This document shows positions 31,534 to 55,993 of a stretch of DNA of 64,000 bases, piece after piece (the stretch's first letter is position 1; each line of letters opens with the position of its first letter). The notes under the pieces were generated by a model, which saw only the letters and a list, made by a program, of their open reading frames with translations, was not told where the DNA came from and did not search any database. The stretch spans positions 1-64,000 of the forward strand of contig NZ_JAFBBG010000005.1 in NCBI RefSeq assembly GCF_016907055.1, written 5' to 3'. Source of the DNA: Paracholeplasma morum (GTDB lineage Bacteria > Bacillota_I > Bacilli_A > Acholeplasmatales > UBA5453). The position numbers were made by a program, and so were the translations under genes.

Positions 31534-31567
31534 TATTAAAGCCTCCTTAGTTAGATAGTATACTACG

Positions 31568-31576
31568 ATTATATCA
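31568..31576 (-). promoter_or_regulatory. Extended -10 promoter of the reverse-strand gene
   Basis: On the minus strand TGATATAAT, an extended -10 box, lies 35 bases before the ATG at 31533. The 186-base gap to res therefore carries two divergent promoters. Confidence 0.55.
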
Positions 31577-31681
31577 TATAAACTAATACTTAAAGTATGT
31601 TATTAATTATAAAAAAACTAGTCATGTGAAAATATAGATATTACTTAAAAAACTTTAATAACGGTAATAAACATACATTTC

Positions 31682-31687
31682 TATAAT
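31682..31687 (+). promoter_or_regulatory. -10 box of res
   Basis: TATAAT lies 33 bases before the TTG start of res; no clear -35 box is seen. It gives res, and perhaps Wadjet behind it, a promoter separate from mod. Confidence 0.45.
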
Positions 31688-31719
31688 ATTTTTAAATACA
31701 ATCATAGGGGTGATATTAA

Positions 31720-34716: not shown

Positions 34717-34737
34717 CTATATAAAAGGGAGGCAATG

Positions 34738-36132: not shown

Positions 36133-36761
36133 ACAAAGTGTAGGACTTACATTCTTTAATCAATTTCAAAAGTTAACTGAAACAGAAAAAGAAAAGTTTT
36201 TCTAGAATATGTAATAAGATTTTAGATAAGAACTTTTTAATTCGACAAAAAGAATCTGATAAAGAAGATTACTTCTTTGTTGTTGGCCACTTAACCTTGT
36301 TTCAAAACTATTTTATGTTGATGGATTACATGGTTACACACTATGAAGCTGATCAAATCGTTGCTTTAAGTACTGAGGCCAACAGAAATAGAACTAGATT
36401 AAGAAGAAACGATACAATCATGTTGCTAGTTTTAAGACTTTTATATCAAAAGAAATCTAAGGAAGCGACACAACTTAATCAGATATTAGTATCAATTAAA
36501 GATATTCAAGAAGAATTAGATCGCACAAGTCTTTTTAAAGGGAAAATCCCTAAAACGGAGTTACAAACAACAATGAGAATGCTTAAAAGTTATTCATTGA
36601 TTGATTTTCAATCTTCCAATCTAATTAACGATGATACGAGGGTAGAGATATATCCTTCTTTACTGCGTGTTGTTAACATTGATGATATGACAAAACTTGA
36701 AGCACAATTGAACGCATATTCTAATGGAGGTGATGATGATGAAGACGATGACCAAGATTAA
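36122..36761 (+). pseudogene. jetB: Wadjet JetB (MksE-like), frameshifted
   Basis: An ATG at 36122 behind GAGGTG opens a frame (MANKQSVGLTFFNQFQ and on) that hits TAG at 36203-36205. The natural continuation, RICNKILDKNFLIRQK and 'YFFVVGHLTLFQNYF', lies in another frame and runs to 36761. One extra base near the T5 run (36197-36201) or the adjoining A-rich run explains it. Joined, the product is about 212 residues, right for JetB, with an acidic tail (GGDDDEDDDQD) overlapping jetC. The 154-codon part from a TTG at 36297 has no RBS. A real mutation, a reversible slippage or a base-calling error would all look the same here. Confidence 0.75.
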
Positions 36762-39700: not shown

Positions 39701-40002
39701 TTTATGTCATTATCGCATCATCTTTTCAACAGTTACTGGATTCATCAAGAAAAAATAGATCATCAGCATGTGTGGTTATGTTTGATGAAGCATTTAACAA
39801 CATGGACGAATCACGCATAGAAGCGATGATGGAATACTACAATGAATTAAATATTCAACTACTCATTGCTGTGCCACCTCAAAGACTTGTCAATATTGTG
39901 CCATATGTAGAGACAACACTCGGATTGATTAAATCTAACCACACTGTAGTTATACATAGTTGGATAGAACATCATCAGGAGGTCAAGAATGAAGAAATAT
40001 GA
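36739..40002 (+). CDS. jetC: Wadjet JetC, SMC-like ATPase (MksB-like)
   Basis: The ATG at 36739 lies eight bases from GGAGG (36726-36730); ATG codons at 36724, 36733 and 36736 are alternatives. About 1087 residues: an N-terminal head with Walker A 'TGENGHGKSTLLDAVNF' (about 28-44), two long coiled-coil arms around a hinge at the middle (about 470-620), and a C-terminal head with signature 'KEKSGGETQTPFYVII' (about 978) and Walker B 'VVMFDEAFNNMDE' (about 1011). As the motor of Wadjet it extrudes loops on circular DNA until JetD cuts. It overlaps jetB and jetD, so translation is coupled. Confidence 0.92.
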   Translation: MKTMTKIKLINWHIFDNHTIDINNNTLITGENGHGKSTLLDAVNFVLSGASGKFNQAANTNTKRTIESYVKGKTGIEGKTFIREQEQIISHIALEFYDNLTKKYLTIGVVFELPFSKHKNHGTFYHVSDSKLLEDYYIYNQNILGLSQFKQAVKAKDKNVNTFETKRDIKTMIKSTLGLSSDKYFDLLPKALAFHPINEVNQFVYDFLLPEDRVDIESLQTNIHSYREVSKLLKIEKEKLDFLKPLENLATQYKEIQSNINILDYLKVDLKYEAIERSIDNKNQNLRDKNLNHDQALSDRSEIETKLIAIETSLNELQKNDMSLRIDSLEKQLQDEKQKLTFVEHKLKNVLDIVKSEVQLAKRIELDFNIKDLLNSSGHQQLVSEIKAYDHLIDEKKGELTVEVSERKKELDKVNDVKNELTSQIKKLESNRFTYDFHVESLLAILKEELAKEFNKDYIDVKPLCELLDIEKENDEWRNAIEGYLNTQRFDIVVEPQYFNKALEIYEKHKFKKKIHGVGLINTNKLNGYVMEQNTLASKVNGLNEFARQAVNMIMGKVICVNDIQELKSHSQSITATGMTYRNNTARQINQAIWERPFIGQKAIEKQLENARVKEKELDQVINSLSKKINDLSNKIDQMKQSRIRELLNMPNHFKDKDDLEIKMNSSLEELTLLKKDNAWLEIAERIKQKKNEKHGLETEKDLVVKRIGILEDNIKSIKATITILTESLSDKSNAYDALPDMSKYLLQIQDKKRALKFENNENHDKMIQSIQNESISLSRSFYNQEAKIMDLMKEYTQKYDNGQLIPNIHNLNDYLDIYYRIKGRNIIEFEDRAAIALNACEKSFKEDFLSKLREKIQTAQEGFYHLNKALKTKPFGSEKEVYTFTYSGSNNPNFRDYYSILQSSEDYVSKSLLVESLSEKNLILLKTLFETLTSEDKSEAQVKRIAEFTDYRKYMDYDIKITNRKDETYYFSKVNKEKSGGETQTPFYVIIASSFQQLLDSSRKNRSSACVVMFDEAFNNMDESRIEAMMEYYNELNIQLLIAVPPQRLVNIVPYVETTLGLIKSNHTVVIHSWIEHHQEVKNEEI

Positions 40003-41173
40003 TATCTTGATTCTAAATGAACTCTTGGATAAGTACGAGCAAAGTAAGTTATCAAAAGAAGGATCAAATCGAAATATCCACAAATCTTTAAAAGCGAATC
40101 ATTCAATCTTAAGAGATTATTGGTCAGAGGACTCGTACCTTTATAAAGACCAAATCAATATGATACTTGATGAACTTGTCAGAAAAGACTTTGTATCCAT
40201 TCGTTTAAGTAAGAATAAAGAACTCGATTATATTGATCTTCGTGTCGAATCTGTTTCTGATATTTACAAGTTTTTAAAGAGATCGAATCCAGAAGTTGAC
40301 CGTACTGAATTGCTAGAATACTTGGCATCATATGTAAGTAGCAATCAAATAATACAAGAATTCATCATCTTCATAACAAATCGTCTAACAAAGTTTCAAA
40401 GTGTTCAAACCTATTTTGATAATTTGAAAGACCTAAAACTTTATATTAAAGCTATTGAAGCGATGTCGTCTCTAGAAGAAGATACATTAAAACGCAACTT
40501 CAGTAAGAGAGTATTTAATGACTCTAAATTATTTGAAAAAATAGAAAATAAAGTACTTAAGATTATTAGAGAATTCACAAACGAGGATAAAGATGATAAT
40601 GATGAATTGCTATCATTATATCATTTGGTTAAGACACCAACATTTGCATACATAAAAGGCAAACTTACGATAAAAGTTAAAAATCAAGTCATCGATTTAT
40701 CCAAATATGGTCATGAAATTGCTCTAAGTTCAAGCGCTTTATTAGATTTTGACGTAATGGAGGTTTCTACCAGAAAAGTAATTACTATTGAAAATCTTAC
40801 AACCTTCGTATCTTTTAACAATCCGGAGTATGTTATTGTCTATTTAGGCGGATTTCATAATAGTGTTAAGCGAAAACTATTAAGCAAGATTTATGGATAT
40901 AATAATGAAATTGAATTCTTTCATTTTGGTGATATCGATGCTGGTGGACTACTTATATTTGAAGATTTGGTATCAAAGACAAATATTCCATTTAGACCTT
41001 ATATGATGGATATTGCGACATTAGAGAACCATAAGGACTATTGGATGACACTTACTCAAAATGATAAGAAAAAACTAGAAAGTATGATAGATGGACGATT
41101 TGCTCAATTGGTTAAATATATGATTATAAATAATTGTAAATTAGAACAAGAGGCAATACAAAAAGCCGATTAG
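39989..41173 (+). CDS. jetD: Wadjet JetD, TOPRIM nuclease
   Basis: The 394-residue protein begins inside jetC (14-base overlap), behind AGGAGG. The C-terminal half is a DUF2220/TOPRIM domain: 'TIENLTTF' with the first acidic ligand (about 266), 'FHFGDIDAGGLLIFEDL' with the DxD pair (about 311), and a helical DUF3322-like N-terminal region that binds DNA. JetD makes the cut after loop extrusion stalls on a small circle. The catalytic residues look intact. A good terminator follows. Confidence 0.9.
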   Translation: MKKYDILILNELLDKYEQSKLSKEGSNRNIHKSLKANHSILRDYWSEDSYLYKDQINMILDELVRKDFVSIRLSKNKELDYIDLRVESVSDIYKFLKRSNPEVDRTELLEYLASYVSSNQIIQEFIIFITNRLTKFQSVQTYFDNLKDLKLYIKAIEAMSSLEEDTLKRNFSKRVFNDSKLFEKIENKVLKIIREFTNEDKDDNDELLSLYHLVKTPTFAYIKGKLTIKVKNQVIDLSKYGHEIALSSSALLDFDVMEVSTRKVITIENLTTFVSFNNPEYVIVYLGGFHNSVKRKLLSKIYGYNNEIEFFHFGDIDAGGLLIFEDLVSKTNIPFRPYMMDIATLENHKDYWMTLTQNDKKKLESMIDGRFAQLVKYMIINNCKLEQEAIQKAD

Positions 41174-42371: not shown

Positions 42372-42809
42372 ATGACAAGCAAGAACAAGTTATATAAAGT
42401 GACAGTTAAATGTGGACATGTAAAAAAGAATTATTACATACCAATTACATTTGCAATAAAGGCTGAAGATGGCAAAGAAGCAGCAGCAATTGCAAGATGG
42501 ATACCGAGAGTAAAACATCATAATAAAAATGCAGTTCTTGAATGTGTAGAAATTGATTATGATGAGTTTCAAGAAATCAACACTAAAAATAGAAGCAACC
42601 CATACTTAAAATGTTCAAGTAAACAAGAACAAAGATACCTCATTCCAAATATTGATGAATTGGTTGTTAACGAGGACGAACAAAAGAGAAATATGAAGCA
42701 AAAAACAGATAGAATTCAATACGTTTTAAAAAAACAAAAAATAGAACTACTTTGGACAGAAAAATTGATGCAACTCGGAAGAGAGGAGTATTCTTATCAA
42801 CTAACATAG
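42372..42809 (+). CDS. Small basic protein of unknown function
   Basis: The 145-residue protein begins behind AAGGGGAAG. I do not recognise the family. The N-terminal half (about 1-70) is a compact alpha/beta stretch, 'YKVTVKCGHVKKNYYIPITFAIKAEDGKEAAAIARWIPRVKHHNKN', with Cys-Gly-His and several His/Lys that could bind nucleic acid; the C-terminal half is lysine- and glutamine-rich and helical. It stands first in the run of genes that leads into the Ycf46-like cluster, just before two small HTH genes, so it may be an accessory or regulator of that cluster. This is inference from position. Confidence 0.55.
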   Translation: MTSKNKLYKVTVKCGHVKKNYYIPITFAIKAEDGKEAAAIARWIPRVKHHNKNAVLECVEIDYDEFQEINTKNRSNPYLKCSSKQEQRYLIPNIDELVVNEDEQKRNMKQKTDRIQYVLKKQKIELLWTEKLMQLGREEYSYQLT

Positions 42810-42835
42810 TTTATGGAATACAAGAAAACAACCAT

Positions 42836-43039
42836 ATGAATAAAGATGTTAAATTGCATTTTTATAAGAATTTAGACTACTTATGTAAAGCAAACCAAAT
42901 ATCAATTAACGATTTAAAAGTAGAACTAGGAATCAAAGGAGCAATCAAATCCCTAGAATCATTCATAAAGATTTGTAATTTCTTTGATGTTATTGCAGAT
43001 GATATTCTGTTTACTACTTTGAAAGACACTACCAAATAG
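42836..43039 (+). CDS. Small Cro/C1-type HTH-like protein
   Basis: Starting at the ATG at 42836, the product has 67 residues: 'FYKNLDYLCKANQISINDLKVELGIKGAIKSLESFIKICNFFDVIADDIL', which follows the XRE helix-turn-helix pattern (LxxLCKxNxISxxxL...LG). The turn is slightly shortened, so binding may be weakened. No strong RBS precedes it; translation could be coupled to the gene before. The promoter of the next HTH gene lies within its 3' end. Confidence 0.5.
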   Translation: MNKDVKLHFYKNLDYLCKANQISINDLKVELGIKGAIKSLESFIKICNFFDVIADDILFTTLKDTTK

Positions 43040-43047
43040 TGTATAAT
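43019..43047 (+). promoter_or_regulatory. Promoter of the XRE regulator
   Basis: TTGAAA (43019-43024), a 17-base spacer and TATAAT (43042-43047), inside the end of the preceding HTH gene; the start codon is 60 bases downstream. Confidence 0.75.
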
Positions 43048-43107
43048 CAAAGTGCCTTAATCATACAACTCAATGATCGAATACTTTCGTGAAAAGGAGA
43101 GAAACGT

Positions 43108-43347
43108 ATGATGAAAGGTGAAAAACAGGATAGATACCAATTGGACTTTTGGAGTATTGGAAACAATATCCGCAAAGTTAGGGAAGAAAGAGGTATATCT
43201 AAATTCGACCTAGCAAATGAATTGGGCTTAAGTGATGATCGTTCGATCTATTACTATGAAAATGGTGATAAATTGACGCTTCAGCGCATAGCACAAATCA
43301 GTAAAGTTCTTGGTGTCACTGTTGACAGCCTCCTAGTTTTTAACTAA
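43108..43347 (+). CDS. XRE-family transcriptional regulator
   Basis: A 79-residue protein with one HTH_3 domain: 'IGNNIRKVREERGISKFDLANELGLSDDRSIYYYENGDKLTLQRIAQISKVLGVTVDSLL'. The ATG at 43108 has AAGGAG eight bases before it. It has its own promoter and terminator and lies directly before the Ycf46-like AAA+ gene, as control genes of restriction and other defence loci often do. Repression of the downstream cluster is a reasonable inference; no operator is obvious. Confidence 0.8.
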   Translation: MMKGEKQDRYQLDFWSIGNNIRKVREERGISKFDLANELGLSDDRSIYYYENGDKLTLQRIAQISKVLGVTVDSLLVFN

Positions 43348-43362
43348 GGGGCTGTTTTATTT
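43326..43362 (+). terminator. Terminator of the XRE gene
   Basis: CAGCCTCCTAG pairs with CTAAGGGGCTG, overlapping the stop codon, followed by a T-rich tract. Confidence 0.75.
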
Positions 43363-43466
43363 TTTATCGTAAACACAGTTTAGACTAACTTTTGATGTCG
43401 AAATAGTATAAAATATTAATATAAGTAAACGATGAATATAAAAAATCATAAAAGGGGATATGAAAT

Positions 43467-45014
43467 ATGACACATTTTGAAGAAGAGTTTGAACTTTTAC
43501 TTAAATGCAAGACACCTTTAATTGAAGTTGTGACACATGAGTGGCAAAGATTACAGAGCTTACTAAATACAATCTCATCGACACAGATGACAAAATGGAA
43601 AAGATGGAATAGAGCTGTTGGCCTTATCGACAGTGAAGGTAATGTAGAACCGATTCAAGATCCATTGATGATCTTAAAAAAATTTAAAGATGAGAATGAA
43701 TCAAGCCATCTTATTCTTGAAAACTTTAATTTTTACTTACAAAACCCAGATGTAGTTAATCTGCTCTTTGAAATTGTTAAGATGAAGAAAATATTTAATA
43801 AGACAATTATCATTGAGTCGTCAGAACTATGTATACCTAATGCATTAGCAAAGGAAATTGTAGTTTTAAATATGCCATTACCAAACAAAAAATTCATTAA
43901 AAAGATAGCAGAAAGTGTCATTATTAACACTGAACTTGAATCGAAAAACTATGAAATCACTGATGAGTTATTGAGCAGTGTGTTAGGATTAACTACAACA
44001 GAAGTTAATCTTGCATTTCTCAAAGCAGCTGAAAAATTTGGTAAGTTAGATAATAGCGTTATCGACTATTTGATTACAGAAAAAGAACATATCATTAAAA
44101 AGGAAGGATTGCTAGAATATTATCGTGCAGAAGAGAGTATGGATAGTGTTGGTGGTTTGTATAACCTAAAAGAATGGTTAAAAGTTCGTGCAAACGCATT
44201 TACACCTAAAGCGCTTGAATACGGCATTGATACACCTAAAGGGGTTCTATTATTAGGGTTACCTGGATGTGGTAAGAGTCTTACAGCAAAAAGTATTGCT
44301 AAAACATGGAAATTTCCTTTATTAAGATTTGATCTTGGAAAAGTTTTCGGTGGTATTGTTGGTCAGAGTGAATCAAACATGAGGAAAGCACTTGATGTTG
44401 CAACTACAATCGCACCATGTGTGCTTTGGATTGATGAAATTGAGAAGGGGTTATCGGGTCTAAGTAGTTCTGATAGAACAGATGGTGGTACTGCATCAAG
44501 AGTCTTTGGGACATTACTCACTTGGATGCAAGAAAAAAAAGAACCAGTCTTTGTGGTTGCTACAGCTAATAATATCGAAAGTTTACCCCCAGAGTTACTT
44601 AGAAAAGGTAGATTTGATGAGATCTTTTTCGTAGATCTTCCTTCCAAAGAAGAAAGAAAAGAAATTCTTAGAATACATATTAGTGGGAAAAAAAGAGATC
44701 CTAAAAAATTTAATCTAGATTTACTAGCTGAAAAAACCAGCGGACTAACGGGTGCAGAAATCGGATCGATTATATCTGATGCATTATTCACATCTTTTTC
44801 AAATCAAAGTGATTTAACAGATAAAGACATTATTGATGAAAGAAATAAGATTACACCACTATCTACTGTGATGGCAGAAAAAATTACTTCAATCCGTTCT
44901 TGGGCAAAAAATAGAGCGAGAATGGCGGGAAACGAATTTAACGAAGAGCTTACTGGTACAGATAAAGTAGTAAGACTTAAGAGTGAAAGCTATAATCCGC
45001 TATTGGAGGACTAA
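43467..45014 (+). CDS. Ycf46-like AAA+ ATPase
   Basis: The 515-residue protein follows the Ycf46 plan from end to end. The N-terminal domain, 'ELLLKCKTPLIEVVTHEWQRL', 'PIQDPLMILKKF', 'VLNMPLPNKKFI', is Ycf46-specific. 'KKEGLLEYYRAEESMDSVGGL' leads into the AAA+ module with Walker A 'GLPGCGKSLTAKSIAK' (about 263), Walker B 'VLWIDEIEKGLSG' (about 317), and 'ELLRKGRFDEIFFVDLP' (about 376). Ycf46 was first named in algal plastids and cyanobacteria; its biochemical role is not settled. The start of the helicase gene overlaps its stop codon by one base (TAATG), so the two are coupled. As an FtsH/CDC48-related hexamer it probably remodels a protein or nucleoprotein. Confidence 0.85.
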   Translation: MTHFEEEFELLLKCKTPLIEVVTHEWQRLQSLLNTISSTQMTKWKRWNRAVGLIDSEGNVEPIQDPLMILKKFKDENESSHLILENFNFYLQNPDVVNLLFEIVKMKKIFNKTIIIESSELCIPNALAKEIVVLNMPLPNKKFIKKIAESVIINTELESKNYEITDELLSSVLGLTTTEVNLAFLKAAEKFGKLDNSVIDYLITEKEHIIKKEGLLEYYRAEESMDSVGGLYNLKEWLKVRANAFTPKALEYGIDTPKGVLLLGLPGCGKSLTAKSIAKTWKFPLLRFDLGKVFGGIVGQSESNMRKALDVATTIAPCVLWIDEIEKGLSGLSSSDRTDGGTASRVFGTLLTWMQEKKEPVFVVATANNIESLPPELLRKGRFDEIFFVDLPSKEERKEILRIHISGKKRDPKKFNLDLLAEKTSGLTGAEIGSIISDALFTSFSNQSDLTDKDIIDERNKITPLSTVMAEKITSIRSWAKNRARMAGNEFNEELTGTDKVVRLKSESYNPLLED

Positions 45015-47986
45015 TGGAAAATAAACAATACACACAGAAATCAAATACGATAAATCCCAAATATAAGATTAAAGATTTGTGCTATGAGGCAATTTATGGT
45101 CCTGCTTCTGGTGGAGCAAAGTCAACTGTAGCGGTGGATTATAGAAATTTCACATCATTTCTAAATAATGCTCATTATATTGCAAGTAAAAAAGAGGGAG
45201 TTTCTGCAAAATACACAAAAATTAACAAAGCTCATGAGTATCAATTAAATCATTGGATAAAGATTACTTCAACACAAAAACTAATTAAAGGTAAACTGGT
45301 TTCTGATGAAACTAAAATAAAAAATGCTATTGAATTCGATATCGAAGTAAACGATGTACCTTTGGAGACTATTGAAGTTAATGGCAAATCAGTCGAATTT
45401 ATCAGAATAGATCATAAAACACTTCTAATTGAAAAAACTGATGGTGAGATGGTTTTCAATCAAAATACTGAAATCCAACCAACGTTTGATCTTATTATAC
45501 CAACTAGTGTTATCTACAATGGTGACATGATTCCTGTCAAAGACAATCGTGCTGTAATAGAAAAATATAGTTATAATGAAGCAACACATCCAGAGTATCC
45601 CCAAATCATATACAAACTGACAAAAACAAATGATAAAGATCAACTCAATACGATCACAATTGAATTAGAAGATGATGATTCGCTGGATTTTTCAATCTAT
45701 GATGTGTTTTTTTCTGAAGATATCGAAAGCATCTATTTTAGAGATAATAAAAAGAAAGAATTCAAAATTGTAAGCAAACTAAAAGAATATGGACAACTAG
45801 TAATTAAGGTTGAGCAAAATGATCAAATTGAAGATAGGGGATTTGTATCAATAAAAAATAATACTTATCAACTTAGATGTCAAAAAAATGCTTTAAGCAT
45901 CCTAGTTGATCGTCCCAGCATTTACCACCATCCCTTGCTACTTTTAAGTGATGATAAGAGTAAGTCGTATTTAAGCAGATTCAACAATGTTTCGGCATTA
46001 TCAATTGATTATAAAGTGCTAACAGATTCTTCGAAAAAAGGTAACTCAATACAGCAACAATTTGTTCAAAAAACACTTCAAACCCCTGATTTTATGATTC
46101 TTGAAGGACCTCCAGGTAGTGGAAAAACCACAACAATCCTTGAGTTTATCTATCAAGCACTTAAAGATGGTAAAAAGGTTTTATTATGTGCATCGACTCA
46201 TGTTGCAATCGATAATGTTCTTGAAAAAATGCTTGAACATAAACAAAAAGATGAATTTCTAAGAGTCATTAATCCACTTAGGGTTGGAGATGAAGACAAT
46301 GTTTATGTGGAAGATGTAAAGCAATATAGCTACAAGAGATTAATGAGTGATGTACCTGACAACTATAAGGATATTGCTTTAGACAGTTTTAATTTGGTTT
46401 GTGGAACAACGATAGGAATCTTACAGTTTCCACCTTTTAAAGAACTTTTAGGTCACGAAAACAATACACAAAGTATTGATCCAATGTTTGACTATTTGAT
46501 CATTGACGAAGCTTCTAAAACAACATTTAACGAGTTTCTTGTTCCTGCGGTATTTGCAAAAAGATGGGTCATTGTTGGGGATGTTAAACAACTAGCACCA
46601 TACGTTGAAAAGAACGATTTAGTTCCAACTTTGATTTATTCTAAACCTCTGGATAATAGAGATCATCGAGAAGCCATCTATTTCTTAAAGCTAATTGAAA
46701 ATGAGAGAAAATGGATTAATAAAGTATTCATGATGTCGGGCTCGTCGATTAAGTACATTGATGCATTTATTAAAACAACCAATCTAATCGCAATAACGGA
46801 TACACATTTAAACAACATTGAAACAATAAATTCACATGATATCAGAAACTGCAGCGCAAAGTTGACTTTACTGTCTATACCAGACATGGTTATTATTGGT
46901 GAAGATGAACTTGTTAAAAAGGCTCTACCTTACATGAACAATCAATATCTAGTCTTGAGTCACAAAGAAAACATAGGTTCGTTTAAAGCTGAAATTTTCA
47001 AGGATTTTTCAATATTACATCATCGAAATCACGAACTTTATAGTTTGATTACAAAGTCATCTGAAGAGTACGGTAAAAAACTTGAAGATGAAATTATTTG
47101 GAGATTAATTCGTATGTACGAGCTTATTAACAACCGAGAAAGCAACAAAACGGTTGGCTATGATAATTACATTAGCAGTATTAAAAACTACTTAAACGAA
47201 GAAGATTCAAAAAATTATGATGACATAATAGCAACCATTTCTGAAATTGCCCTACCGTCAATTATTACTCTAATTCAAAACGGATTAAAAAAGAAATCAA
47301 ATAATCCTAAAAGAACTATATTAAACGAAGGGTTTTCAGATGAAGATCGAGTGAATCGGTTTGTATCATTAGAGTATCAGTACCGAATGCATCCAGAAAT
47401 CTCTGAGTTACCGCGTACTTACGTTTATGACAATAAAGCATTACAAGACGATACGAGATCTTATCTACAATTCGAATATATAGATACTAAGCGTCGTTTT
47501 GAAAGAAGACATATTACATGTGATACAGTTTATAAAAATCAAAACGAAAATGAAGCCAATGCGATTATGGAAGAACTAGATAAGTTCATTAAATTTGCAG
47601 CTAATAAAACCAGAAATTATGATTTAGCAGTACTTACCTTTTATAATGGCCAAGTCTTTCTACTTAGAAAAAAACTACAAAAAAGATTTAAAAACCAGAA
47701 TAAATTTAACTTTAAAGAAGGTAACGTAAGAATCACATTGAATAACGTAGATAAATTTCAAGGACAAGAAGCTGACATTGTTTATTTATCGATGGTTCAA
47801 AATGATCGAGTGGGATTTCTAGATTCAGTCAATCGTATGAATGTTGCAATAACTCGCGCTAAAGATAAAGTTATTTTATTTGGGAACGAAGACTTCTTCA
47901 AAAAACAAACAGACTCAGTTTTATTGAAACAGATTTATACACATGAATTTGCACCAATAAAAAGTGCAAACCCATTTAGGTGGTAA
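45014..47986 (+). CDS. UPF1-like superfamily 1 helicase
   Basis: The 990-residue protein has an N-terminal half (to about 345) without a recognised domain, then a SF1B (DNA2/NAM7/UPF1-type) helicase: Walker A 'LEGPPGSGKTTTILEFI' (about 364), 'ASTHVAIDNVLEKML', 'YLIIDEASKT' (about 496), 'VGDVKQLAPYV', 'YQYRMHPEIS' (about 788), 'DKFQGQEADIV' (about 914), and 'NRMNVAITRAKDKVI' (about 938). It unwinds RNA or DNA 5' to 3' in characterised relatives. About 250 residues are inserted between the motor lobes. It is translationally coupled to the Ycf46-like ATPase. Confidence 0.85.
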   Translation: MENKQYTQKSNTINPKYKIKDLCYEAIYGPASGGAKSTVAVDYRNFTSFLNNAHYIASKKEGVSAKYTKINKAHEYQLNHWIKITSTQKLIKGKLVSDETKIKNAIEFDIEVNDVPLETIEVNGKSVEFIRIDHKTLLIEKTDGEMVFNQNTEIQPTFDLIIPTSVIYNGDMIPVKDNRAVIEKYSYNEATHPEYPQIIYKLTKTNDKDQLNTITIELEDDDSLDFSIYDVFFSEDIESIYFRDNKKKEFKIVSKLKEYGQLVIKVEQNDQIEDRGFVSIKNNTYQLRCQKNALSILVDRPSIYHHPLLLLSDDKSKSYLSRFNNVSALSIDYKVLTDSSKKGNSIQQQFVQKTLQTPDFMILEGPPGSGKTTTILEFIYQALKDGKKVLLCASTHVAIDNVLEKMLEHKQKDEFLRVINPLRVGDEDNVYVEDVKQYSYKRLMSDVPDNYKDIALDSFNLVCGTTIGILQFPPFKELLGHENNTQSIDPMFDYLIIDEASKTTFNEFLVPAVFAKRWVIVGDVKQLAPYVEKNDLVPTLIYSKPLDNRDHREAIYFLKLIENERKWINKVFMMSGSSIKYIDAFIKTTNLIAITDTHLNNIETINSHDIRNCSAKLTLLSIPDMVIIGEDELVKKALPYMNNQYLVLSHKENIGSFKAEIFKDFSILHHRNHELYSLITKSSEEYGKKLEDEIIWRLIRMYELINNRESNKTVGYDNYISSIKNYLNEEDSKNYDDIIATISEIALPSIITLIQNGLKKKSNNPKRTILNEGFSDEDRVNRFVSLEYQYRMHPEISELPRTYVYDNKALQDDTRSYLQFEYIDTKRRFERRHITCDTVYKNQNENEANAIMEELDKFIKFAANKTRNYDLAVLTFYNGQVFLLRKKLQKRFKNQNKFNFKEGNVRITLNNVDKFQGQEADIVYLSMVQNDRVGFLDSVNRMNVAITRAKDKVILFGNEDFFKKQTDSVLLKQIYTHEFAPIKSANPFRW

Positions 47987-47998
47987 AGGAGTGATTCA

Positions 47999-49501
47999 AT
48001 GAGAATACTATATAAAACAACTGGAACACTAAGCAATTTCGAAGCAAAAGTTGATTTAAAACTTGATCGATCTCGAAATGATTTCAAGGCTTTATTGACT
48101 GAGATAAGTTCAGGTAATAAGATCGACACAATATTTAAATCCATTGCCATTTCCAATTCAATCGAGAAAATCTTGAAAAATAAAGGTTTTATTGATGCAA
48201 GTGGGAAACTAACAAAATCAGGCAAAGACTTTATCAATATTCCACGTTTAGAAGAAACAGAGTCAGGTACTTACTCTATTGATCATGTTGCATTACCAAT
48301 TGGAATTGAGATTGTACATTTCTTTTCTGCCATGAGAAGAACAATCTCTAATGAAAAAAGAGCTTCGTCCCAGTGGTATGTCCAAAATTTACTAACTCAA
48401 AATCAATTTGTAACAGATAGGAAAGATGAAATCGTTTATTTTAAAGAAGTTAGTTTACCTAAACAACTGAAAAGTGTCTTTAAAGGTGAGGACAAGAGCA
48501 CTGAAATCAATGTCAACTTAGTCGAAAAGACATATAGTATCGATAAGGGGACATGGCTTGACACTGGGGATAATCTATATTCAAAAGTACTATCATATGC
48601 TTATGATGTTCTCAAAAAAAATCCATATGGACGATTTGATTTAGTTCGAAATCTACTATACATTGACTCGCTGAAAGACTTTTCTGATCAAGAGCTTGTC
48701 ACTGGCGAACTTGATCGATATTCTTTTCAAGGTATAGAAGTGAGTAAGTTTCCACTATGCATTGATAAAGTAGCTATGGCTAAACAGTATGCATACCTTT
48801 ATATGTATTATCGTTTAAAAGATGATGCGATATATAGTTTTAAAGAAATGGATGAGATATTCCAAAACGAAGTTTTAACTAAGGATATATTTACTGAATC
48901 AGTTAAGCAAAATCATTCAATGCTAGAGTTCCAATACGATTATAACGGGTTTAAAGATAATCTAAGTGCAGATAAATTCAACAATCTATCTTATAAGTTA
49001 AGAGTTTTGGAAGAGTTCTTAGATTTAACTATTGTTGATAATGAGTTTTCTAGAGCAAGAAATTACTCAGATATCGTCAACAAATTTAAAACTACAATGT
49101 CTGGTTCATCTGTTCATCATTTATACATGGTGATGGGTTATCCTTTCGCCAAAAATGCTAAGACAAAAACACGTGAAATGGTAGAAGCATTTAAAAAAGA
49201 GTATGCAAACATTTCCATCGTCAAAAAAGGAAATGAGCAGCAAGAAAATGCTGAAATAGAAAACGATGTAAGAAAAATGGGAGTACTAGTCAAAAAAAAT
49301 TCAGCTATCAAGAGCGCTTTTCATGATCGCTATCTGGTTTTTGAACTTGAAAACAAGACATTTGAAGTCTACCTAGTCACTTGTGAAATTGGACAATTTT
49401 TCAACCCATCGACTAATCAACCCTTAGGCTCAATTTTTAAAGTTAATACACATGAAATCACAAAAGAGAATCACAACTTGATTCAATTGGTAAAGGAGTA
49501 A
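47999..49501 (+). CDS. Unassigned 500-residue protein with an HDRY motif near the C-terminus
   Basis: Starts behind AAAGGAGTG, 12 bases after the helicase. I do not recognise the overall family. The N-terminal 120 residues look like a winged-helix or wHTH region ('ISNSIEKILKNKGFIDASGKLTKSGKDFI'). The C-terminal end has 'AIKSAFHDRYLVFELENKTFEVYLVTCEIG', where HDRY followed by a hydrophobic strand resembles one half of a phospholipase-D-like active site with Arg in place of the usual Lys spacing. This is suggestive only. Its place in the coupled operon implies that it acts with the ATPase and helicase. Confidence 0.6.
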   Translation: MRILYKTTGTLSNFEAKVDLKLDRSRNDFKALLTEISSGNKIDTIFKSIAISNSIEKILKNKGFIDASGKLTKSGKDFINIPRLEETESGTYSIDHVALPIGIEIVHFFSAMRRTISNEKRASSQWYVQNLLTQNQFVTDRKDEIVYFKEVSLPKQLKSVFKGEDKSTEINVNLVEKTYSIDKGTWLDTGDNLYSKVLSYAYDVLKKNPYGRFDLVRNLLYIDSLKDFSDQELVTGELDRYSFQGIEVSKFPLCIDKVAMAKQYAYLYMYYRLKDDAIYSFKEMDEIFQNEVLTKDIFTESVKQNHSMLEFQYDYNGFKDNLSADKFNNLSYKLRVLEEFLDLTIVDNEFSRARNYSDIVNKFKTTMSGSSVHHLYMVMGYPFAKNAKTKTREMVEAFKKEYANISIVKKGNEQQENAEIENDVRKMGVLVKKNSAIKSAFHDRYLVFELENKTFEVYLVTCEIGQFFNPSTNQPLGSIFKVNTHEITKENHNLIQLVKE

Positions 49502-49505
49502 TCAT

Positions 49506-50873
49506 ATGATAAGAACAAGAGAGTTTTCAAATTTGGATAAAACAATTAAATATGGCTTTATCTATGATCATGAAAAAGTTAGTCCTATTACCATTGAAGA
49601 TGTTTTATCGGAAGTATCTAAAAGCATTTTAATTTACGATACAAAAGGGTCTGTATTTTATGAATTCGCATCAAAAGCATCAAAGTTAATGAACAATCCA
49701 AATATTGTTTATGCAGGACTTATCAATCATAAAATTCTTCAAGAACTTAAGAATAAAGGCATTGTATCTGGATTTTATCGCTCAACCTTAAAAGACATAG
49801 ATGTAGCAATAGCAATTGTCGACAAGACAAAAGCGTATTTGATTGTGGATTCTAAACATATTATTAGACTGAGCGATCAAAAAGTTTCATCTGAACTTTT
49901 TCAGTTTATTAATCACGTCTTATGGAGTCGTGCTGATTTTGAAGTATTGAACAATAACGCCCCAAAGAAAATAAGCGAAATCAGATTAAGTGTCGTCATT
50001 CCAACGTTTAACGCTTTGATAAGAAAATCAAAAATCAATGAAGAATTGTTGCTATTTGGAACAGAAGATTTCAATAATCCTCAGATGTCAATGTTATCTC
50101 AACCTAAAGATTTAGAAAAAGATGCCTATATCATTAATCAAAACATTTCAAGCTTATGTGGATTTAAAAACGAATTTTATATGAAATTGTTTGACGACGT
50201 CTATGCACCTATTGGCAATGATGTTAAACATTTAGTTATTGGAAGAAGTTTTAAAGAAGAAAAAATTAAATCTCTAATAGATAGAGACCTCTGGTTTGAT
50301 GGAAAAAAACGAGTTATTGAGAAAACAAAAGAATTCACTTCGACAGTTTATAAACCTCTTGATGAATATAAATCATTTAATCCAGATTTTGATCAGATCT
50401 ATAATCAACAAGTCAAAGAAAACTATGGAGTTGTAAAGATCAATGTCGATGTTAAGCCAATTATCATTGATTCTTCATATCAGTTAAGTGCGAAGTATAA
50501 AAAAAGGGCAGAGACAGAAAAACTACTATCTGAAAATTTAAGCAAACTAAAAAAGCTAACCGATGAAGATAATGCAAAAATTATTGATAGCATAATTAGT
50601 ACAAAGTTGCTATTAGAACGTATTAGAAAATACAATGAATTTTTAAGTCAAACAGAGTTTGGTGAAGAGACACTTAAGAATAAAAAAGCAAGTGTTTCAA
50701 AAATCAACGTAGGAAAAGAAGAAATTTCAGTCCCTCAAGAACTTTTAGGAAAACTATATACAAAATCAAATAAACAGTTCATGGCTTTAAAAGATGAAGA
50801 AAAAATTACCGAAGCTAATAAGTGGCTAAGTGAAAATAATCAAGAAGCAACATTGGTGCTTAGCAATGAATGA
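49506..50873 (+). CDS. Unassigned 455-residue protein
   Basis: Begins four bases after the previous gene. The first 150 residues ('SILIYDTKGSVFYEFASKAS', 'VAIAIVDKTKAYLIVDSKHIIRLSD', 'FQFINHVLWSRADFE') have the alternating strand-helix rhythm of a phospholipase-D-like or related nuclease fold, without the HxK motif. A helical stretch follows (about 330-400, 'ETEKLLSENLSKLKKLTDED'), and then a basic tail. I cannot name the family. The overlap with the DUF2997 gene (8 bases) shows that it belongs to the same translation unit. Confidence 0.6.
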   Translation: MIRTREFSNLDKTIKYGFIYDHEKVSPITIEDVLSEVSKSILIYDTKGSVFYEFASKASKLMNNPNIVYAGLINHKILQELKNKGIVSGFYRSTLKDIDVAIAIVDKTKAYLIVDSKHIIRLSDQKVSSELFQFINHVLWSRADFEVLNNNAPKKISEIRLSVVIPTFNALIRKSKINEELLLFGTEDFNNPQMSMLSQPKDLEKDAYIINQNISSLCGFKNEFYMKLFDDVYAPIGNDVKHLVIGRSFKEEKIKSLIDRDLWFDGKKRVIEKTKEFTSTVYKPLDEYKSFNPDFDQIYNQQVKENYGVVKINVDVKPIIIDSSYQLSAKYKKRAETEKLLSENLSKLKKLTDEDNAKIIDSIISTKLLLERIRKYNEFLSQTEFGEETLKNKKASVSKINVGKEEISVPQELLGKLYTKSNKQFMALKDEEKITEANKWLSENNQEATLVLSNE

Positions 50874-51063
50874 TAAGAAGATTAATGTAACCATTTCAAA
50901 AGATGCACAAATATATCTTGAAACTGATAACTTTAAAGGTGAATCTTGTGTTGAAGCAATCAAAGAACTTTTTGAACAATTTCTTGATATCGACAATTTT
51001 GAACATACTTCAGAGTTCTATGAAAAAGATGAAGAATTAAAAATTGAGGTGAATCTCAAGTGA
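50866..51063 (+). CDS. DUF2997 small protein
   Basis: The ATG at 50866 overlaps the preceding gene; a frame extension to 50830 is unlikely. The 65 residues read 'INVTISKDAQIYLETDNFKGESCVEAIKELFEQFL' and 'TSEFYEKDEEL', which is the DUF2997 pattern: a beta-hairpin, a conserved G-x-x-C, and an E(F/Y)Y near the end. DUF2997 genes are commonly found next to Ycf46, Ycf35-like and ferredoxin-like or activase-like genes, as here. The single conserved Cys might be a modification or iron-sulphur site. The function is unknown. Confidence 0.75.
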   Translation: MNDKKINVTISKDAQIYLETDNFKGESCVEAIKELFEQFLDIDNFEHTSEFYEKDEELKIEVNLK

Positions 51064-51593
51064 GCAGTATTGTAAGAAATATTAATTTGCATCTTATATG
51101 CGCAAGCAATCTATTACCTAAAGACGAAATGATCAATAGTTTTATGAACACCATTGATGAATTAAACATAAAAATCTCAAAGAACATTTTGGTGTTTGGT
51201 AACGGAAAAACCGCGAAAATAACGATGGGTGAACGCATTGTTATCCACACAGATTCGAACCAAATAAGTTCTATACAAAGTCAAATTGAACTTCTAAGAG
51301 AACTGTTTACAAGAAGAGCCTTAGTTTCACAAAAAAATTATCAAGACCAGTTACTCGAGCAATCATATCGTGCAAATCGCGAAAATCATGATGCAACTGA
51401 ACTTAGAAGTATCATTGATCAACTCGAAATGAAAATGGCTCAGTCAGAAGAAGCACTTAAGATTCAACAACTTCCATCATGTGAGGCTTTAGTTGAAGAG
51501 TTGAAAGTATCAGCAATTAATAAAGGATATGAAGTTGTACAAACTCAAAATAATGACAATGTCCAACTTCAATTTGTTAGGAGAACATATTGA
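51060..51593 (+). CDS. Small protein with Ycf35-like (DUF1257-like) C-terminus
   Basis: A GTG start overlaps the DUF2997 stop (GTGA). The 177 residues comprise an N-terminal alpha/beta part ('INLHLICASNLLPKDEMINSFMNTIDELNI'), a coiled coil (about 110-145), and a C-terminal segment, 'CEALVEELKVSAINKGYEVVQTQNNDNVQLQFVRR', that resembles the end of Ycf35/DUF1257 proteins, where a helix and two strands close with an Arg-Arg. The N-terminal part does not clearly match, so the assignment is tentative and leans on the DUF2997 and Ycf46 neighbours. Confidence 0.5.
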   Translation: MSSIVRNINLHLICASNLLPKDEMINSFMNTIDELNIKISKNILVFGNGKTAKITMGERIVIHTDSNQISSIQSQIELLRELFTRRALVSQKNYQDQLLEQSYRANRENHDATELRSIIDQLEMKMAQSEEALKIQQLPSCEALVEELKVSAINKGYEVVQTQNNDNVQLQFVRRTY

Positions 51594-52138
51594 GCACATA
51601 TAATATTCATCATATTGCACATAACTCTAAAATATATGGTCCTGGTGATCGAGATGTCATTTGGTTCAAAGGATGTACAATCAGATGCAAAGGATGCATT
51701 AATCCTCATCTATGGTCTTTTGATAAAGAAAATGAGATGGCATTATCTTCAGTGCTGAGTTCAATTAAAGCAAAAGAAATCACTCTACTTGGTGGTGAGC
51801 CTCTTGACCAAAAAGACTTATATGATTTGATCGTAGAATTGAAGCATAGAGATATAGGCGTGATTTTATTCACTGGTTATTCGTATATAAATCTTGATGA
51901 AAAAAAGCTTCAAACAGTAAAACTATGTGATGTAGTTATCTCTGAACCTTTTGAATTAGAAAAAAAAGATGATTCTCTTTACTTGAGGGGATCATCTAAT
52001 CAGATTATTACTTTCCATACGAATCGATATAATAAAATGGACTTTGAAGAAAGAACAGAATATGAGCTTGTCATTAATGATAAACTAGAGTTTAGAGGTA
52101 GAAAAGACATATCATTTATTGAAGCGTTATTGAAATAA
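51590..52138 (+). CDS. Radical SAM activase-like protein (4Fe-4S single-cluster domain)
   Basis: A TTG start overlaps the preceding stop (TTGA) and has AGGAG six bases before it. The 182 residues show the radical-SAM cluster motif CxxxCxxC as 'FKGCTIRCKGCINPHLW' (about 27-43), then 'ITLLGGEPLDQ' (the GGEP AdoMet motif) and 'DIGVILFTGYSY'. This is the compact form of NrdG/PflA-type activases, which install a glycyl radical or generate a 5'-deoxyadenosyl radical. No glycyl-radical enzyme is present nearby, so the target may be a partner in this operon, for instance the Cys-bearing DUF2997 protein; this is inference. It is the last gene of the coupled run. Confidence 0.8.
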   Translation: MSTYNIHHIAHNSKIYGPGDRDVIWFKGCTIRCKGCINPHLWSFDKENEMALSSVLSSIKAKEITLLGGEPLDQKDLYDLIVELKHRDIGVILFTGYSYINLDEKKLQTVKLCDVVISEPFELEKKDDSLYLRGSSNQIITFHTNRYNKMDFEERTEYELVINDKLEFRGRKDISFIEALLK

Positions 52139-52184
52139 TGAAACTTTATACACCTGAAATGTGATTTAATAGATGTTAATTAGA

Positions 52185-52190
52185 TATAAT
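52185..52190 (+). promoter_or_regulatory. -10 box before the HATPase gene
   Basis: TATAAT lies 53 bases before the ATG at 52244, in the 105-base gap. The HATPase gene may thus be expressed separately from the radical-SAM gene. Confidence 0.4.
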
Positions 52191-52243
52191 TCAAATATCA
52201 AGTTTTTAGTTAAATGAATATGAGTACAGGAGAATTTTAAATA

Positions 52244-55200
52244 ATGATTCAGTCATTTGTAGATTATTTTGATTTACAACACGCAAAAACAATTGAAGAA
52301 ATTGCAGACAAGATGCGTAACTTAAATCGTGCAATGAAATTGGGAAATACATATATTGATGAGATTCTATCAGACTTGTATTCAACTCCTACACACTTCA
52401 TTTTTGAATTATTGCAAAATGCAGATGATTCAAATGCAAAACATGTATATTTATCGCTTGAAGAGGATAGATTAATCTTTACTCATGATGGTGATCCATT
52501 TGATATTGAGGATATTAAAAGAATTTGTGCAGTTAATGACTCGGCTAAAAAAATGCGGAAAGGAAAAATTGGTCAGTTTGGAATTGGATTCAAATCGGTT
52601 TATAGTATATGCAAAACACCAGAAATTTTCTCTGGTGATTTTAAATTTAAAATTATAGATTATAGGGTTCCTGAAAAAATAAACTCGGATGAAAATTTTA
52701 CAAGTAAGACAAAAATCATCTTACCTTTCGAAAGTAGTATTTACACAAACGATGATATAAAAAGACAAATAAGCAACTCCTTAAAACTCTTAGATGAAGA
52801 TACATTGTTGTTCATTAACAGTATAACAAACATACATATTGAAGATAAAGAGTTTATTTCAAAAGAAAATAATACATTGTTCTCTGATAATGGTAAAAAC
52901 ATAATTAATACACAAATCAAAATCGGTACTAATATAGTGCATTATTTACTTTTTGAAATAGAATTTGAATTGCTAAATTCTAAAACTAACGAAATAGACA
53001 TTAAAAAGTGTCAAATAGCATATAAAATGGTTGATGGGAAAATAAACATGAATCAAGAAAGTACCAAGCTAATGGTTTTTTTTCCAACTCAACAAGATAC
53101 AAAGGTTAGGTTAAAAGTAAACGGACCATTCAAAACCCAAAAACATCGAGAATCTGTTGATTATGCTGATGGAGACAACAAGTATATACTAGAGCAGTTA
53201 GTTGAATTATACAAATATTCAATCTTAGAACTAAAGAGAATGAATCTACTAACATATGAAGTTATTTCACAATTACCAATAAAAAAGGTTAATTATTATA
53301 ACTGGGATTCTTTAAGCAATAGATATTTATTACAGACAAGATTATTTGAAGAAACAAAGGAATTATTCCAAAAAGAAGAGTTAATTAAAACAATAGATGG
53401 TGAATTTGTTGCTCACGATAAAGTTCTTTTACTGCGTAATTTTGGATTGCAAGATTTGCTATCTGAAAACGAGCTTAAACTTATATTTGGTAATAGATCA
53501 AAATGGATAAGCAAAAAAACTTTAAGTAGTGATAATTATGATGATCAAGAAGATAGAGGGGATTTATACGATTTTTTGACAAAAGAATTATTAATTCCAG
53601 ATTTATATTACAGATTATTTCTGAATAGTACGACAGATTATTTTTGGGATAAGGTAACGAATCAATGGCTTATAAAATTTTACAGATTTTCTCTATCCCA
53701 AATAGGTACATTATCAGATAGCAATTATAATCAGCTAAAAAATAGAAAATTCATACGACTAGGAAATGGATCAATGATAGCACCTATGGATTCAAATGGT
53801 GTTATAGTCGTTTTTTTACCAACTTCAGAAAACAATTATGACTCGAAAAAGGACATTCATAGGGATTTACTAAGTGATTCCACATCTCTAGAATTTTTTT
53901 CTAAAATCGGGATTAAGAAAGCATCTAATTTTGAATTTATAAAGAATGACATCGAAAAATATTTGTTAAATAGTATAAGTGTTACTGATTATATCGAATA
54001 TTTTGAAATGTTCATAGAAACTTTCATGAATTCCGGATTAGATGAAAAAAAAGACATCATTGCATATTTAAGTGATAAAAAAATATTTATAGACACGAAT
54101 AATAATAAACATATCGGAAAGGATATTCTAATACCTACGGATGACTTACTTAATCTTTATAACGGGTATGATGAAGTGATTTTTCTTAATAAAGAGGTAT
54201 ACGAGACTGTTTGCATGGATCTAGACTGTAATACTTATTTAGAAGAATTAGGGTTAAGAAAACACCCTAAAATCATTGAAACTAAGCGCACAATTCATTC
54301 GTTTTCATCATATTTTGCAGAAAATCATCCTGGTAAGGATATAAACTATTCACAAGGCGGTGGTGGTAGCGACTATTCTCTCGATGGTTTAGAATTCATT
54401 ATATCTAATATTAACCCCATATCATCAAAAATACTCTGGAGATTTTTATCTGCAATCGATTTAAAATACTCAGAGATAGAAATCAGCTATAAAGTTAAAT
54501 ATGGATCGTGGGAAAAACTCATTAAGAAGTCCTCTCTGACTGAAAAACTTAATGATTATTCATGGATATACTTCGAGAATAAAAAATGCAAGCCTTCTGA
54601 TGTTAGATATTCATCCATCAGTTTAATTTATTTACCACATCATTTTGTTTCCAGATTAGATTTCATAAAAGAAGCAACTTTGCCACCTGAAGTTGAACAA
54701 AGATTATTGTTATCAGAGGGTTATAGCAGCGAGGATATAAAAAATGCTTTCGAGTTGTTAGAACAAAAGAAAAAATCTGAACGACTTATGGAACTTAAGG
54801 GAGATTACTTATTAAATATACTTGAAAACACCTTAAATATTAATCTTAATGAAAAACAAAAAATTTCAATATATGCAATTGATTTTCGAGCATTATCAAT
54901 CCATTCAAACCAAAAAGTTATCTTTGATATTTTAAAGGCAAGTAAAAAGACAATTAAAGAATTTAATTCGATTTCAGAATTAAAATTTAATACATTTAGT
55001 TATTTTCAATCCCTTTTGAATCAACAACTATCAATAAATGAAAGAGGATGGAAATCTTCCCTGTATAACAAAATGATAGAAACAACAGATATTACAGAAC
55101 AAAGGCAATTCAGCAAGATGTTAACTCAATATGATCAATTTGAGTTTAATAATCTTTTCACTATTGAAACTGAACTTGACATTGAATTTGATTATGACAG

Positions 55201-55993
55201 TTTTTATAATTCAATCGATTTTCTTAAATACGACAAGTCAACAAAGATAATAAATCTGAATGAAAAGTATAATTTCAATAAAAGAGAATTTGATTGCAAA
55301 TTACTAGAGAATAACATATCCGATGAGAAAATAGACTTGTTTTTAAATATTGTGCATAATCAAAGTTATATGTATCTAGGGATGATAGATAATTTATTTG
55401 AAGAATATAAGAAATATTTAGATGTGATACCTAAAAAGATTGTCGATGATTCATCTTATATGGATATAACATTTAGAAAAGCTACAACAAAACCAGTTTA
55501 TATTGATAATCAAAGAGCAAGTAAAACCAGCACTAAGCAGGATATAGAAAGAAGTGAAAGAAGTAAATCTGCTTTTGGATTAAAAGCAGAAACAATTGTT
55601 TATAGATACTTGAATACTATAGCTGAAGGAGTTACCGAAATTGATTGGGTTTCTGAAAATGCAGACAAAGACATTTACCCAAATGGCAAAGCTGGACTTG
55701 GTTATGATTTTAAGTATAAACAAAATGAACTTACTTATTTTGTGGAAGTTAAAAGTAGTAAAAAATATTCAAAAAAATTGATTTTGACATTTTCAAAAAA
55801 CGAAATCAAGTTTGCACGAAAAGCAAATGAAAAATATTTGATATTTATATGCAATGGAACTGGAACACAGAATCCTAAAATTGAGTGTATAGATAATATT
55901 TTTATTAGCGATGAATTTGAAATTGCAATTTTTGGAGAAGGATTTGCAGCAACACCAAGTGGATTTGACATATATATCGAAATTGAAGATTAA
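52244..55993 (+). CDS. Sacsin-type HATPase fused to a DUF3883 PD-(D/E)XK domain
   Basis: The 1249-residue protein starts behind CAGGAGAA. Its N-terminus is an HSP90/sacsin-like GHKL ATPase: 'FIFELLQNADDSNAKHVYL' (N box, about 50-68), 'LIFTHDGDPFDIEDIK' (about 80), 'KGKIGQFGIGFKSVYSI' (about 107). The middle 900 residues are without a recognised domain. The C-terminus matches DUF3883: 'GLGYDFKYK' (about 1150) and 'YFVEVKSSKK' (about 1165), a D...ExK nuclease-type core. This NTP-driven layout with a nuclease end is typical of large anti-phage proteins. It stands 105 bases behind the radical-SAM gene and may be part of that system or an independent defence gene. Confidence 0.8.
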   Translation: MIQSFVDYFDLQHAKTIEEIADKMRNLNRAMKLGNTYIDEILSDLYSTPTHFIFELLQNADDSNAKHVYLSLEEDRLIFTHDGDPFDIEDIKRICAVNDSAKKMRKGKIGQFGIGFKSVYSICKTPEIFSGDFKFKIIDYRVPEKINSDENFTSKTKIILPFESSIYTNDDIKRQISNSLKLLDEDTLLFINSITNIHIEDKEFISKENNTLFSDNGKNIINTQIKIGTNIVHYLLFEIEFELLNSKTNEIDIKKCQIAYKMVDGKINMNQESTKLMVFFPTQQDTKVRLKVNGPFKTQKHRESVDYADGDNKYILEQLVELYKYSILELKRMNLLTYEVISQLPIKKVNYYNWDSLSNRYLLQTRLFEETKELFQKEELIKTIDGEFVAHDKVLLLRNFGLQDLLSENELKLIFGNRSKWISKKTLSSDNYDDQEDRGDLYDFLTKELLIPDLYYRLFLNSTTDYFWDKVTNQWLIKFYRFSLSQIGTLSDSNYNQLKNRKFIRLGNGSMIAPMDSNGVIVVFLPTSENNYDSKKDIHRDLLSDSTSLEFFSKIGIKKASNFEFIKNDIEKYLLNSISVTDYIEYFEMFIETFMNSGLDEKKDIIAYLSDKKIFIDTNNNKHIGKDILIPTDDLLNLYNGYDEVIFLNKEVYETVCMDLDCNTYLEELGLRKHPKIIETKRTIHSFSSYFAENHPGKDINYSQGGGGSDYSLDGLEFIISNINPISSKILWRFLSAIDLKYSEIEISYKVKYGSWEKLIKKSSLTEKLNDYSWIYFENKKCKPSDVRYSSISLIYLPHHFVSRLDFIKEATLPPEVEQRLLLSEGYSSEDIKNAFELLEQKKKSERLMELKGDYLLNILENTLNINLNEKQKISIYAIDFRALSIHSNQKVIFDILKASKKTIKEFNSISELKFNTFSYFQSLLNQQLSINERGWKSSLYNKMIETTDITEQRQFSKMLTQYDQFEFNNLFTIETELDIEFDYDSFYNSIDFLKYDKSTKIINLNEKYNFNKREFDCKLLENNISDEKIDLFLNIVHNQSYMYLGMIDNLFEEYKKYLDVIPKKIVDDSSYMDITFRKATTKPVYIDNQRASKTSTKQDIERSERSKSAFGLKAETIVYRYLNTIAEGVTEIDWVSENADKDIYPNGKAGLGYDFKYKQNELTYFVEVKSSKKYSKKLILTFSKNEIKFARKANEKYLIFICNGTGTQNPKIECIDNIFISDEFEIAIFGEGFAATPSGFDIYIEIED

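Follow-up and report, generated by a model that had tools for sequence, protein, structure and literature searches.

Gene content and extent of the cassette

The contig NZ_JAFBBG010000005.1 of Paracholeplasma morum (assembly GCF_016907055.1), the first 64,000 nucleotides of which were analyzed here and are referred to as the window, carries an array of ten genes on the forward strand between positions 42372 and 52138, in which a Ycf46-type AAA+ ATPase and a UPF1-like helicase are combined with a DUF2997 protein and a radical S-adenosylmethionine (SAM) enzyme. A preliminary description of this stretch had singled out seven of these genes (43467-52138) as a potential defense system, with two preceding helix-turn-helix (HTH) genes and a following 1249-residue GHKL/DUF3883 protein as further parts. 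Inspection of the open reading frames (ORFs) bore out the tight packing of the seven genes and their TAATG, GTGA and TTGA junctions. The conserved unit comprises ten genes: the two HTH genes are indeed members, they are joined by a 145-residue gene at 42372, and the GHKL protein is excluded. In a genome of another family (G095) the order is the 145-residue gene, two HTH genes, Ycf46, the helicase, the proteins of 500 and 455 residues, DUF2997, the 177-residue protein and the radical-SAM enzyme, while a contig from a third family (G074) shows the last four cassette genes, reaching the contig end. Since the whole gene order recurs in the former and the last four genes in the latter, the cluster is beyond what chance would produce.

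The Ycf46-type ATPase (43467..45014; Pfam AAA, 1.7e-31) meets the UPF1-like superfamily 1 (SF1) helicase (45014..47986; Pfam AAA_11/AAA_12, 1e-32/1e-35) in a TAATG junction, and the helicase motifs GPPGSGKT, IIDEAS, GDVKQL and NVAITRAK are all intact. Two large proteins of 500 (47999..49501) and 455 residues (49506..50873) follow, and then the small DUF2997 protein (50866..51063; 6.1e-7, above the Pfam cut-off), for which the ATG at 50866 is a likelier start than the GTG at 50830 that was listed. The 177-residue protein (51060..51593), conserved in G095 and G074, begins in a GTGA-type overlap with DUF2997, and the NrdG-type radical-SAM gene (51590..52138; Fer4_12, 7.1e-27; Radical_SAM, 1e-7) begins in a TTGA-type overlap and encodes a CxxxCxxC motif (C29, C33, C36). 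Pfam thereby confirms the Ycf46, SF1 helicase, DUF2997 and radical-SAM identities proposed earlier. Scans with Pfam and NCBIfam gave no family above threshold for the proteins of 500, 455 and 177 residues.

At the 5' end, the first cassette gene (42372..42809) encodes a 145-residue accessory protein with weak resemblance to DUF7644, its Pfam matches all lying below the cut-off; a homologue with 27% identity occupies the same place in G095 (L007:1239-1682). The second (42752..43039) encodes a small HTH-like protein for which a Pfam scan found no match; by reading it occurs at the same place in G095, it is also kept in the related locus L012 discussed below, and its true start is probably downstream of the listed TTG. 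The third (43108..43347) is a Cro/CI-type HTH regulator (HTH_3, 2.6e-9), and an HTH gene occurs at the equivalent position in G095. At the other end of the G095 copy, 3' of the radical-SAM gene, lies a protein that by reading is vWA-like and lacks a Pfam match (L006 10785-11381), possibly an optional member of the module.

The helicase, winged-HTH and PLD-family trio

The two large proteins had been left unassigned in the preliminary description. They indeed belong to no Pfam family, and remote homology now predicts that the 500-residue protein is a winged-HTH (wHTH) protein and the 455-residue protein a divergent phospholipase D (PLD)-like protein. In a scan of GTDB contigs with the helicase, the loci L012-L023 stood out among the matches listed with E-values of 1e-42 or lower (up to 750 residues), the rest lying at 1e-15 or worse; related loci are few, and counts from genome scans are to be read as "at least". 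Among the same matches, every one of these loci with enough sequence encodes the helicase, a protein of 349-538 residues and a PLD-type protein in the same order, and this trio ranges from Bacteroidota to Vibrio plasmids. In a phylogenetic tree the trio helicases fall together, with MkoA of the Mokosh system as the nearest named sister, and the six-locus group that contains the window helicase has a support of 86/98.

Profile searches, run against about 1,740 background ORFs, provide a chain of similarities for the second gene: the group of the window protein reaches its counterparts in L013, L014 and L016 at 2.8e-10, and these reach the short forms at about 1e-10. Comparison domain by domain proved informative, whereas full-length hhalign of such thin alignments did not; thus, the N-terminal region of the 500-residue protein is related across the trio loci with an hhalign E-value of 1.6e-8. 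The best matches of this N-terminal profile outside the trio loci are true MkoB proteins (L108 and L109; 5.6e-4 and 5.5e-3), and MkoB therefore looks like a fusion of two genes that are separate here. As for the third gene, a PLD profile links the L013 and L014 proteins to active PLD proteins (4.9e-10 and 1.7e-15, and down to 8e-12 in reverse searches), and the C-terminus of the 455-residue protein matches the third-gene group of L013, L014 and L016 at 5e-6.

A conspicuous difference between the branches concerns the catalytic center. The HxKx4D motif, present twice per protein, is intact in each of the eight third genes from the Bacteroidota and Vibrio branches and in none of the six in the branch of the window. 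An HDR[YF] motif in turn marks the end of the second, wHTH protein in all five long forms and in none of the eight short forms; in the window it takes the form HDRY (H442-D443-R444), in a C-terminal domain. The simplest reading of this pattern would be that the PLD site, the original one, decayed and that a different domain took its place. With the PLD active site lost, the HDR[YF] domain of the 500-residue protein becomes the likely catalytic site, though its designation as a nuclease is a guess.

The partners of the trio also differ between lineages. In Halobacillus and several Bacteroidota the trio is bare, with no fourth partner, and in a Treponema rumen metagenome-assembled genome (MAG; L016 8906-19877) it is accompanied by a kinase, a vWA protein and a PP2C phosphatase, resembling the TerY-P triad. 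On plasmids of Vibrio and Pontibrevibacter (L103, L104 and L105) it forms a compact four-gene unit with an RtcR-type CARF-AAA-HTH regulator (693 bits), in one case adjoining cas1/cas2; the wHTH protein of these three trios is not represented by a PADLOC model.

Distribution, mobility and genomic surroundings

A search of the genomes of the order recovered the 500-residue protein in two further genomes, placing the cassette in 3 of 150, and it was not found in six genus mates searched; it is not a housekeeping set, nor is it fixed in the lineage. A partial copy lies in a genome of a different order (G521), on a contig identical in sequence to L012 (HGW-Tenericutes-1). Its similarity to the window starts at 42296, shortly ahead of the 145-residue gene, and amounts to 94.1% at the nucleotide level, with the cassette proteins being about 96% identical, whereas chromosomal proteins of the two genomes are only 56-58% identical. 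This discrepancy indicates that the cassette moved recently, unless the MAG contig was mis-binned. The homology to the window starts some 15 bases after the end of two serine recombinase genes in L012 (4380-7269), which likely belong to the element that carried the cassette. Taken together, these comparisons mark the cassette as horizontally mobile, as far as sequence can tell. As an attachment site, tRNA-Leu was considered and rejected, its 3' end (16-30 bases) being unrepeated in the window. No homologue of the 455-residue protein was found in phages or plasmids by tblastn, nor in viral contigs by profile scans with three alignments; weak matches in G465 and G398 were dismissed, their surrounding genes being ordinary chromosomal ones.

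The cassette borders an island (25127-41173) that lies 3' of the tRNA-Leu gene (24634) and includes a gene for a Snf2-type helicase (C3a139 model, HKD+Snf2) with a DUF4391 gene, a type III restriction-modification (RM) system (Mod and Res; 29099-30943 and 31720-34716) and the Wadjet genes JetA/C/D (34735-41173). Downstream, the 1249-residue protein (52244..55993, forward strand) is Tiamat TmtA, matched over residues 14-1222 with 710 bits, and has a sacsin-like N-terminus and a NOV_C end. Near the G095 copy there are a PDC-S60 gene, a DNA methyltransferase, DrmA/DrmB-like DISARM genes and UvrD-like helicases. Thus, in the lineages of both the window and G095 the neighborhood is one of defense and not of housekeeping, which agrees with the earlier placement of an NTP-driven gene set in a defense island; the joint occurrence that was proposed as a check on it was found, the set recurring in G095 with defense genes nearby and with no housekeeping surroundings seen.

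On account of this neighborhood and of its relatives, the cassette would likely function in anti-phage immunity. The adjacency of serine recombinases to the L012 copy, and the fact that relatives of Ycf46 are common in plasmids and phages (phrog_8638), could instead suggest that it serves a mobile element in replication, maintenance or counter-defense. We regard such a service role as unlikely, if still worth serious consideration, given that the trio loci adjoin defense genes of several kinds (Wadjet, RM, Tiamat, DISARM-like or cas genes), and that, of the closest named relatives, Mokosh is a defense system and CoCoNuT is predicted to be one.

The Ycf46/radical-SAM module, its proposed role and kinship with known systems

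In the window the fourth partner of the trio is a module of Ycf46, DUF2997, the 177-residue protein and the radical-SAM enzyme. The Ycf46 protein is 46% identical to that of L015, 49% to that of G315/L097, and 36-39% over the full length to proteins encoded on cyanobacterial and Bacillota plasmids. The DUF2997 proteins share an invariant G-x-x-C (G25 and C28 when numbered from the 50866 ATG) in seven of seven aligned sequences, making DUF2997 a candidate substrate of the radical-SAM enzyme. The latter is 52-54% identical to the G095 and G074 copies. The designation of the 177-residue protein as Ycf35-like is tentative: its position beside DUF2997 fits and there is a weak C-terminal resemblance, but no Pfam match exists and hhalign to DUF1257 is not significant (0.31). 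Beyond the complete copies, Ycf46 lies 5' of the helicase in a Bacteroidia contig (L015) and DUF2997 lies 3' of the PLD-like gene in a Saprospiraceae contig (L013); although both contigs are truncated, these cases tie the module to the trio in two phyla.

Relatives of the module occur in further settings. A Ycf46-type ATPase lies near one end of the Streptococcus satellite phage Javan368 (L112 5683-7260), a frequent place for cargo in such elements. On plasmids of Rhizobium (L113 6181-16277) and Photobacterium (L114 2942-8582), a ClpB-type AAA+ protein and an NrdG-like radical-SAM enzyme are paired with a protein combining kinase, DUF4011, UPF1 helicase and MTES_1575 nuclease domains, or with a PIN nuclease. 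This independent recurrence suggests that the pairing of AAA+ and radical-SAM proteins with helicases or nucleases is functional and of repeated origin. Two candidate connections were discarded: a weak DUF2997 match in L098 (G282) has no related genes nearby, and matches to IetA reflect generic AAA similarity (92 bits, as against an NCBIfam cut-off of 510), with no candidate for IetS among the domain matches of the cluster.

The trio and the module might be two independent neighbors, each with a task of its own. Both halves do occur alone: the bare trios of Halobacillus and Bacteroidota have their counterpart in stand-alone modules (Ycf46, either DUF1257 or an unassigned small gene, DUF2997, radical SAM) on plasmids of Paenibacillus, Paenarthrobacter and Rhodococcus, and in G315. 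However, the window shows module and trio interleaved, with Ycf46 before the helicase and the genes from DUF2997 to radical SAM behind the PLD-like one, joined by overlaps of 1-8 bases; the interleaving is identical in G095, and the partial copies in the two Bacteroidota contigs fit it. Independence thus appears improbable. An operon for metabolism or stress repair, combining NrdG-like activation of a glycyl-radical enzyme with RNA repair, has in its favor that the radical-SAM enzyme is closest to NrdG and that the RtcR-like regulators of related loci hint at the sensing of RNA damage. It is nonetheless very improbable in light of the sporadic distribution and the absence of a glycyl-radical enzyme gene from the cluster (no NrdD gene is among its domain matches); moreover, the score against the NrdG model TIGR02491 is 94 bits, under the equivalog cut-off of 126.1 bits, on which a housekeeping NrdG role was rejected. 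Finally, a larger system with the 1249-residue GHKL protein as its effector, suggested by the shared strand and a gap of 105 bases from the radical-SAM gene, is scarcely tenable, as this protein matches TmtA almost end to end, and as other genes lie 3' of radical SAM in G095 and G074, the two other loci showing this flank, which places Tiamat outside the unit.

With these alternatives weighed, a mobile defense cassette with a Mokosh-like core and a Ycf46/radical-SAM control module offers the best explanation of the whole, and we favor it with moderate confidence. Several observations weigh against it. The L012 contig, being from a MAG, might be mis-binned; the N-terminal half of the 455-residue protein is not significantly PLD-like in sequence (best value 0.066); the AlphaFold models are too poor to confirm the folds (mean pLDDT of 41 for the 455-residue and 39 for the 500-residue protein); and neither Pfam nor the PDB yielded a credible match to the HDR[YF] domain. 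Furthermore, the module is also found where the trio is absent, namely on plasmids, in phages and next to an injection system, and is therefore not specific to defense; in the last case, on a Treponema succinifaciens plasmid (L099 9330-11485), radical-SAM and Ycf46-like genes are flanked by the VgrG/baseplate genes belonging to a contractile injection system.

Under the defense-cassette interpretation, the helicase would track on phage-derived or damaged RNA or single-stranded DNA and drive a nuclease by way of the wHTH protein, which would act as the coupling element; catalysis would be performed by the HDR[YF] domain, with the dead PLD protein serving as scaffold or sensor. The slot taken by a kinase in Mokosh and the TerY-P loci, or by a CARF/RtcR regulator, would here be filled by Ycf46, DUF2997, the 177-residue protein and the NrdG-like enzyme. 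We infer that the components form a complex, which the AAA+ ring of Ycf46 would most likely remodel or gate, with a post-translational modification by the radical-SAM enzyme licensing or releasing it. The earlier suggestion that the radical-SAM enzyme activates or modifies a component is kept as a hypothesis. The substrate of this enzyme is a matter of speculation, with the G-x-x-C of DUF2997 as the best candidate. A more specific and rather doubtful version posits that a radical or a Gly/Cys cross-link is installed there, and that DUF2997 so modified is taken up by the Ycf46 ring and, as the switch, arms the helicase-coupled nuclease, whose catalytic site would have shifted from the dead PLD protein to the new HDR[YF] domain; if true, it would amount to radical-based activation of an immune nuclease and would give the plastid Ycf46/DUF2997 families their first function.

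More generally, the helicase-wHTH-PLD core of Mokosh-like defense accepts interchangeable control modules, namely a kinase, a CARF regulator or an AAA+/radical-SAM set; in one branch the nuclease site that it started with has apparently been lost, and a new domain is present. The cassette also ties Ycf46 and DUF2997, conserved in cyanobacteria and plastids, to a tractable bacterial setting in which their biochemistry may be tested outside photosynthesis. Radical chemistry has one known case in immunity, that of the viperins, which synthesize nucleotide analogues, and the radical-SAM enzyme, if required, would represent an uncommon use of it.

The claim that no described system has this gene set stands in that neither PADLOC nor NCBIfam returned a complete-system match, and no description was found in the openly accessible literature; the combination of the helicase core with Ycf46, DUF2997 and radical SAM thus appears to be undescribed. 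It needs qualification for the core, which is a relative of Mokosh and CnuH with the wHTH and PLD partners typical of the class. In the literature searched, only two texts name DUF2997, a ferredoxin review of 2014 and a Prochlorococcus preprint of 2026. In Synechocystis it is clustered with ycf35 and a ferredoxin (PMC4284462). The cyanobacterial and plastid set of Ycf46, Ycf35 (DUF1257) and DUF2997 shares the AAA+ family and DUF2997 with the cassette, but has no helicase or PLD protein, whereas the cassette adds radical SAM and its 177-residue protein is not provably a DUF1257 member. The stand-alone plasmid loci share the genes of the module (radical SAM in some) and their neighborhood, and lack the helicase, wHTH and PLD genes. 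Tiamat is a separate one-gene system next door.

What the sequence shows is the anatomy of the cassette, its conservation and mobility, the loss of the HKD motif and a relationship to Mokosh and CoCoNuT. In Mokosh type I, too, wHTH and PLD elements come after a UPF1-like helicase, with the MkoB N-terminus resembling the 500-residue family (5.6e-4) and its PLD domain the third-gene PLDs (0.005). It differs in that here the helicase carries no kinase (Pfam), wHTH and PLD are split, the PLD motif is lost, and Ycf46, DUF2997, the 177-residue protein and radical SAM are added. Consistent with this, the cassette helicase scores 256 bits in pieces against the MkoA model, as against 920 bits over the full length for a true MkoA, and the PADLOC scan gave no MkoB match for the 500- and 455-residue proteins, the likeness being confined to remote homology of parts. 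In CoCoNuT systems and their relatives, UPF1-like helicases typically precede an elongated wHTH protein with an effector (CnuE), often with TerY-P or RtcR genes (PMC11090510, which makes no mention of a radical-SAM enzyme). The helicase and wHTH order of CnuH/CnuE (Type II/III) is seen in every trio locus, and the relatives of the cassette carry exactly those optional modules; however, the cassette proteins scanned include no McrB-like GTPase (CnuB), CnuC, McrC or HEPN, and the AAA+ partner is Ycf46. Accordingly, the absence of a kinase, of an MkoB match and of the GTPase sets the cassette apart from both Mokosh and CoCoNuT, even though it probably works like both.

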